This document shows positions 48,939 to 49,361 of a stretch of DNA of 64,000 nucleotides, piece after piece. The number at the start of each line of letters is the position of its first letter. Position 1 is the first letter of the stretch. The translations under genes were made by a program, and so were the position numbers. The notes beneath the pieces are model-generated. The model made no database searches, was not told where the DNA came from, and saw only the letters and a program-made list of their open reading frames with translations. Origin of the DNA: Burkholderiaceae bacterium (lineage in GTDB: Bacteria > Pseudomonadota > Gammaproteobacteria > Burkholderiales > Burkholderiaceae_C); the NCBI GenBank assembly GCA_913776825.1, contig CAJYPV010000010.1:124001-188000 (forward strand), in the 5' to 3' direction.

Positions 48939-49023
48939 GCCCAGGTGGCGGAATTGGTAGACGCACTAGTTTCAGGTACTAGCGGGTAACTCCGTGGAGG
49001 TTCGAGTCCTCTCCTGGGCACCA
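48939..49023 (+). tRNA. tRNA-Leu (anticodon CAG), CCA encoded
   Basis: GCCCAGGTGGCGGAATTGGTAGACGCACTAGTTTCAGGTACTAGCGGGTAACTCCGTGGAGGTTCGAGTCCTCTCCTGGGCACCA folds as class II tRNA-Leu. Confidence 0.97.
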
Positions 49024-49361
49024 AATATGAAAAGCCGGCCTTGCGCCGGCTTTTCTCATTCTGACGCCCAGGAAGTGATGTCCAGTGGACATCACGGGAG
49101 GACTCGAAGGGGCGGGCCCGCAGGGCACGACCGGGGTCGCGTGGATGTGACCGAGTCCTCTCCTGGGCACCAAATACGAAAAGCCGGCCTCGTGCCGGCT
49201 TTTCTCATTCTGACGCCCAGGAAGTGATGTCCAGTGGACATCACGGGGGGACTCGAAGGGGCGGGACCGCAGGTCTCGACCGGGGTCGCGCGGGTGTGAC
49301 CGAGTCCTCTCCTGGGCACCAAATATGAAAAGCCGGCCTCGTGCCGGCTTTTCTCATTCTG
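49003..49361 (+). repeat. 149-bp tandem repeats (two full units plus partial third) each beginning with the tRNA-Leu 3' end and a terminator hairpin
   Basis: CGAGTCCTCTCCTGGGCACCAAATAYGAAAAGCCGGCC...GCCGGCTTTTCTCATTCTGA at 49003, 49152 and 49301 (period exactly 149); unit interior has perfect palindrome GTGATGTCCAGTGGACATCAC. Confidence 0.95.

Follow-up and report, generated by a model that had tools for sequence, protein, structure and literature searches.

Tandem tRNA-linked repeats of Burkholderiales carry forward and inverted copies of their host tRNA end

Why should a tRNA gene be followed by copies of its own 3′ end? The question is raised by a tRNA-Leu(CAG) gene in the window, the whole 64,000-nucleotide stretch analysed here (C10:124001-188000 of a 5.7 Mb draft genome). 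A first-pass annotation had described this gene as followed by tandem 149-bp repeats carrying the 21-nt tRNA 3′ end CGAGTCCTCTCCTGGGCACCA at 49003, 49152 and 49301, each with a hairpin behind it. The description was confirmed in full: the 149-bp period is exact, and a GCCGGC hairpin is present all three times. Two 149-nt units, 94% identical to each other, lie 3′ of the gene, with the first element copy beginning about 42 nt past it. A 62-nt block (tRNA 3′ end, AAATAYG, hairpin and TCTCATTCTGA) is present three times at 95-97% identity. TRF reported a period of 149, 2.4 copies and a score of 658, by far the top array in the window, so the array is not a chance one. A simple σ70 promoter scan found none at the element locus; judging by position, the element would be co-transcribed with the tRNA. 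In an Rfam search of the element stretch the tRNA alone passed, and MIR1862, AgrB, sX11 and similar models were sub-threshold.

The picture of direct repeats was incomplete, an inverted arm, a five-helix structure and a match to the host tRNA having been missed. The 87 nt between direct copies are not a plain spacer and hold a split inverted tRNA end, that is GCCCAGGA, a hairpin and GAGGACTCGAA. The full layout between forward copies is GCCCAGGA, GTGATGTCC AGT GGACATCAC, GGGAGGACTCGAA, a hairpin and GGTCGCG..GTGACC, in which blocks one and three reverse-complement the acceptor and the T-arm of the tRNA, and a perfect 9-bp hairpin, P2, splits the inverted acceptor arm from the inverted T-arm. 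Along a unit, the inverted acceptor arm is followed by P2, the inverted T-arm, hairpins P4 and P5, the forward 3′ end to CCA, and the terminator. The unit of about 107-108 nt is predicted to fold with forward and inverted arms paired (z = -4.5 for copy 1 and -4.7 for copy 2), giving five helices: P1 formed by the acceptor arms, P2 (the perfect hairpin where acceptor and T-arm meet), P3 formed by the T-arms, and P4 and P5. The features of the locus, in window coordinates, are:

48939-49023, + strand: host gene tRNA-Leu(CAG) (ARAGORN; Rfam tRNA 53.4 bits)
49029-49055, + strand: terminator-like hairpin 1, GAAAAGCCGGC..GCCGGCTTTTC (sequence; fold -19.6 kcal/mol, z -5.4)
49066-49172, + strand: element copy 1, anti arm, hairpins and forward arm (covariance model R2, 100 bits; z -4.5)
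49066-49073, + strand: copy 1 inverted acceptor arm GCCCAGGA, P1 5′ strand (complement of tRNA TCCTGGGC)
49075-49095, + strand: copy 1 perfect hairpin P2, GTGATGTCC-AGT-GGACATCAC (inverted repeat; covariation)
49098-49108, + strand: copy 1 inverted T-arm GAGGACTCGAA, P3 5′ strand (complements T-loop and T-stem)
49110-49132, + strand: copy 1 hairpin P4 (covariation)
49135-49152, + strand: copy 1 hairpin P5, GGTCGCG..GTGACC, with a conserved G.T pair (alignments)
49152-49172, + strand: copy 1 forward 21-nt tRNA 3′ end with ACCA (exact match)
49178-49204, + strand: terminator-like hairpin 2 (sequence)
49215-49321, + strand: element copy 2 (R2, 100.1 bits; fold z -4.7)
49215-49222, + strand: copy 2 inverted acceptor arm (sequence)
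49224-49244, + strand: copy 2 hairpin P2 (inverted repeat)
49247-49257, + strand: copy 2 inverted T-arm, GGGGACTCGAA (sequence)
49259-49281, + strand: copy 2 hairpin P4 (paired change C-G to A-T relative to copy 1)
49284-49301, + strand: copy 2 hairpin P5 (alignment; R2)
49301-49321, + strand: copy 2 forward 21-nt tRNA 3′ end (exact match)
49327-49353, + strand: terminator-like hairpin 3 (sequence)

The T tail of hairpin 1 is short on the + strand, and a terminator scan reported this hairpin only on the - strand.

In the source genome only 1 of 58 tRNAs has the element (two copies at one locus), and the second tRNA-Leu(CAG) is without it. At least one unit was present at 18 of 30 tRNA-Leu(CAG) loci from 16 genomes of the same genus, with remnants at others. 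When nine loci from these genomes were set against named records, eight matched over 400 nt, among them records of Roseateles depolymerans, Mitsuaria chitosanitabida and Mitsuaria sp. PDC51; the genus is thus probably Roseateles in its broad GTDB sense. The assembly artefact that the first-pass annotation had allowed for, with the repeat absent or single-copy, was not borne out, as more than one genome carries a multi-unit array. The comparison of repeat number across relatives that it proposed gave two units in a single-contig genome of the same genus (the 3′ end of the second degraded) and up to four in other genera. A neutral one-off tandem duplication or assembly artefact, with which the single occupied tRNA of the source genome would agree, is thus scarcely credible; it is refuted by the comparative data, the element being found at those 18 of 30 loci and in many named Burkholderiales. 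At one locus (L161) four tandem units lie 3′ of one tRNA-Leu(CAG), three of them nearly identical. At another, a same-genus locus downstream of tRNA-Leu(CAG) (L047), the inverted arms are kept and P2 is precisely missing, GCCCAG being joined directly to TCGAGGACTCGA; judged from the junction, this clean loss is likely a DNA-hairpin deletion.

A P5-core pattern run on species-representative genomes matched at least 119 stretches. Among the matches listed, 126 of 138 have a tRNA on the same strand at most 400 nt to their 5′ side, and the taxa among those listed are Burkholderia, Paraburkholderia, Trinickia, Cupriavidus, Pandoraea, Bordetella, Alcaligenes, Herbaspirillum, Roseateles, Ideonella and Gallionella. 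In model surveys of the order, R1 was positive in at least 14 and R2 in at least 23 of 401 genomes from scattered families, the large genome surveys having been run with strict filters, so that the counts are lower bounds. Under strict filters, 400 other genomes drawn from the class outside the order yielded no element. Plasmid matches carrying the element are large second replicons of Cupriavidus. The best matches of a phage search were to tRNA sequences only, and in IMG/VR the exact core pattern was unmatched.

The predicted helices covary. Among 21 units, both-side changes were found at 13 base pairs, compared to 4.3 in shuffled and 2-5 in slid controls. Covariation extends to all five helices in a set of 93 units from many genera, with 697 double-change cells versus 206 shuffled and 88-128 slid. 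This larger alignment was fitted to the model, which somewhat favours the structure, but both alignments show P2 and P4 to be variable in sequence and almost perfectly paired. Fixed sequence is confined to P5 and the GAA junction, which would presumably be contacted by something. The GAA, complementary to the T-loop, is nearly invariant though unpaired within the element, and an unpaired GG is conserved too. The inverted T-arm junction occurs in alignments A3 and A5 in two stable, widespread forms, GGACTCGAA and GGACGAGAA, and the GAGAA form is also seen in several of the E. coli repeats described below.

The 171 units with a visible host are spread over 11 isoacceptors: Leu(CAG) with 135, Ser with 15 (four anticodons), Asp with 12, Glu with 5, and SeC, Arg, Thr and Leu(CAA) with one each, counts that are phylogenetically non-independent. 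Exact complementarity of the inverted acceptor 7-mer to the host was found in 56 of the 97 units whose forward acceptor copy is intact and in 34 of the 60 that have lost it (chance expectation, 0.6%). Behind Leu(CAG) the anti arm tracks the acceptor variant of its own tRNA (77/82, 32/39 with 6 ties in addition, and 6/6). Where Leu elements have lost the forward acceptor copy, the inverted arm is exact in 29 of 47 and has at most one mismatch in 42 of 47. Mismatches of the anti arm to the tRNA were 25 G-T and 10 A-C. Asp units are generally without the inverted acceptor arm and keep the inverted T-arm. At two loci, L064 and L213, the element has no inverted acceptor arm and lies inside a tRNA-Asp operon, between two tRNA-Asp genes, 6-7 nt after CCA and without a terminator.

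In one genome (G314) the cores behind Ser(TGA) and Ser(GGA) are 93% identical and unlike the cores of other genomes, and the arms fit their own tRNAs; G406 offers a weaker case with Ser(GCT) and SeC (cores 80%, arms again fitting their own tRNAs). Own-tRNA arms on near-identical cores within a genome mean that arms have been exchanged while cores persisted; a move of the element from tRNA to tRNA is indicated by such comparison only. Of 36 other units, 17 had their nearest core behind the same tRNA of a different genome, which shows that vertical descent takes place as well. A general rule of RNase P-type tRNA mimicry with a free CCA was rejected, because some Ser and Glu inverted arms run through the CCA complement and because 60 elements are without the forward acceptor copy.

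Tandem repeats of this kind are known from E. coli as TLRs (Egan and Landy 1978 and Rudd 1999, as cited in PMC8144298). There, 22 units at ten loci follow tRNA or rRNA genes, and in each the final 18-19 bp are identical to the end of the RNA upstream (PMC8144298). One TLR is rtT/RttR at tyrTV, whose reported phenotype was retracted, and the three rrn units RrA, RrB and RrF are read-through sRNAs binding Hfq and CsrA (PMC8144298). The window element is a tRNA-linked repeat by its sequence hallmark, the 21-nt tRNA 3′ end being exact in both copies. Like TLRs, with one to five copies per locus, it sits directly downstream of its gene, in two copies here and up to four in relatives. Several loci per genome, a property of the E. 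coli TLR set and not of the TLR definition, were found in the relatives G314, G072 and G371 and not in the source genome.

The parallel to E. coli tyrT/rtT drawn in the first reading of the sequence is right and goes further, as the TLR class tends to share the pairing of forward and inverted arms. The tRNA loci extracted from E. coli K-12 yielded 14 tRNA/repeat pairs, tandem duplicates included. Among nine units taken as representative, the forward T-arm was predicted to pair with an upstream inverted copy in seven, compared to 2.4 expected from shuffles. As in E. coli, the Burkholderiales units follow tRNA genes, end like the upstream tRNA and occur in one to several tandem copies, and in some the GAGAA junction and a GCCC..GGGC hairpin are similar. 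In contrast to E. coli TLRs, the Burkholderiales form has an inverted acceptor arm with P2 at the acceptor/T-arm junction, its unit in the window is 149 nt (about 180 in E. coli), and its hosts are mainly Leu(CAG). RrA, RrB and RrF, located between the two terminators of E. coli rrn operons, differ in following 5S rRNA rather than tRNA, and they bind Hfq and CsrA. With filters off, R2 gave at most 13 bits and no match on E. coli TLR loci, and the Rfam RtT RNA model was not among the matches of the window element with E up to 5. The architecture is shared; sequence homology is unproven. Next to the inverted arm, on its 5′ side, the Arg TLRs of an E. coli tRNA-Arg cluster have a further hairpin, GCGGT..ACCGC, which by its place in the sequence is possibly the counterpart of P2. 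It is conceivable, if somewhat doubtful, that proteobacterial TLRs form a single structural class of mirror elements parasitic on tRNAs, which would carry a forward and an inverted end of whichever tRNA they follow, move between the tRNA genes of a genome and have their arms rewritten to the new host by template switching.

Other known repeats and RNAs were compared as well. BRE/bprJ are beta-proteobacterial GC-rich tandem repeats of about 90 bp, partly transcribed (PMC3110155). They share GC-richness, tandem arrangement and bacterial class with the element but are reported between and within protein genes, a comparison made by description and not by sequence. The Bordetella lexA locus, a single one, matched R2 with at most 18.3 bits, which is not convincing; assignment of the element to BRE is unsupported, though conceivable. 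sX11 (RF02230) has the same helix order in a weak full-length alignment of 19 bits, far under its cutoff of 70 bits. A search of the source genome for sX11 gave no match, the controls being silent too. sX11 is not known to have host-tRNA arms. REP/BIME was rejected, as it needs tens to hundreds of dispersed palindromic copies and the source genome has two at one locus. No matching sRNA was noticed in the consulted passages of two Burkholderia cenocepacia sRNA papers (PMC5688073, PMC4603805).

A helix under selection as RNA should admit G-U much more readily than A-C. The terminator hairpins of the same loci, 162 in number, had 57 G-T and 4 A-C mismatches. In 179 distinct units the G-T:A-C counts were 13:21 in P4, 52:61 in P1, 16:5 in P2 and 57:19 in P3; mismatches in P4 look random as to strand, and P2 and P3 are intermediate, with a mild G-T excess. 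P2 and P4 together (29:26) differ from the terminators (57:4; Fisher p = 4e-7), in a test whose weak points are shared ancestry, the choice of the A5 set by P5 sequence and a terminator control scored from the loop outward. The mismatch pattern of the variable hairpins is suggestive, not decisive, of upkeep at the DNA level (template switching, recombination) rather than RNA selection alone. Template switching creates and maintains hairpins (PMC8794818). In P2, double changes from one Watson-Crick pair to another outnumber single changes (608 versus 244 in close, non-independent pairs), which fits template switching. The G.T pair of P5 is kept in nearly all copies; since unconstrained palindrome correction would erase it, some sequence-specific selection must act on P5.

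We tentatively favour, at slightly less than even confidence, the view that the element is a palindromic repeat dispersed from one tRNA gene to another and kept mainly by DNA-level copying. Recombination between direct repeats would multiply and homogenise the units and hold the forward arm identical to the tRNA; the anti arm and the P2 and P4 hairpins would be kept complementary by template switching between inverted arms; and read-through from the tRNA would yield a folded RNA with a tRNA tail, either incidentally or as a co-opted product. Such copying is supported by covariation far above shuffled and slid controls, by the fit of the inverted acceptor arm to its host even where the forward copy is lost, by an anti arm that follows the Leu(CAG) acceptor variant, and by cores in G314 and G406 that are alike and yet bear host-specific arms. 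The unlikeness of P2 and P4 mismatches to those of terminators, the double changes in P2 and its clean loss at L047 point the same way. Against it stand the P5 G.T pair, the mild G-T excess in P2 (16:5) and P3 (57:19), the Asp elements without an inverted acceptor arm, and the keeping of Leu(CAG) elements across many genera, which looks like function; also, no mobilising enzyme was found, and the core pattern was unmatched in IMG/VR.

The main rival is a functional sRNA. Read-through of the first hairpin would produce a tRNA-like folded RNA of about 107 nt with a CCA end, which tRNA enzymes would process and which would act on protein or RNA, as RrA, RrB and RrF do after rRNA operons. The strong covariation of the fold, a P5 G.T pair acceptable in RNA and the conserved unpaired GAA and GG agree with it. 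So do the Asp elements of L064 and L213, which must be transcribed, since their place is within tRNA operons and no terminator precedes them, and the E. coli rrn TLRs, transcribed by read-through and binding Hfq and CsrA (PMC8144298). However, mismatches in P4 and P1 have no RNA-type G-U preference, 60 of 171 elements have lost the forward acceptor copy and with it the CCA end, and the rtT phenotype was retracted (PMC8144298), so that we consider this reading possible but doubtful.

An inverted arm that still complements the tRNA after loss of the forward copy (in Leu, 29/47 exact and 42/47 within one mismatch), a T-loop-complementing GAA kept though unpaired in the element, and the 25 G-T to 10 A-C mismatches of anti arm to tRNA would also be consistent with a guard or switch against read-through. 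Here the inverted arm would pair with the tRNA's own 3′ end past the terminator and block maturation, and the downstream forward copy would relieve the block. We think this unlikely: the element is detectable in only 23 of 401 genomes of the order (by the lower-bound count), and with most genomes lacking a detectable element it is dispensable. The 3′ ends of tRNA genes are classical integration sites, and the forward copies resemble att repeats. The duplex of P1 and P3 in the predicted fold equals the tRNA-end duplex, so a folded single strand might mimic the double-stranded tRNA 3′ end as a target of tyrosine recombinase, like folded attC or CTX-phage attP, and the element might be a relic or cassette of site-specific recombination. 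This is improbable, more so than the guard, since recombination would not rewrite the inverted arm to fit each host; moreover, the ORF list around the window element has no obvious integrase by inspection, and viral contigs did not match the exact core pattern.

No function has been assigned to TLRs since they became known in 1978. Their origin and function can be tested directly, given a structure backed by covariation, a broad natural sample with eleven host tRNAs and an arm that follows its host. If DNA-level copying is the true explanation, the element would be a clear example from nature of how inverted arms are rewritten to match a functional gene, and it would caution against taking covariation by itself as a sign of a selected RNA.

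Elsewhere in the window, a c-di-GMP-I riboswitch (23959-24051, 69 bits) was found at the start of a 911-aa ORF (24032-26767), the true start of which is probably later than listed. The product reads like a secreted S53-type peptidase (GGTSLATPQWAG).
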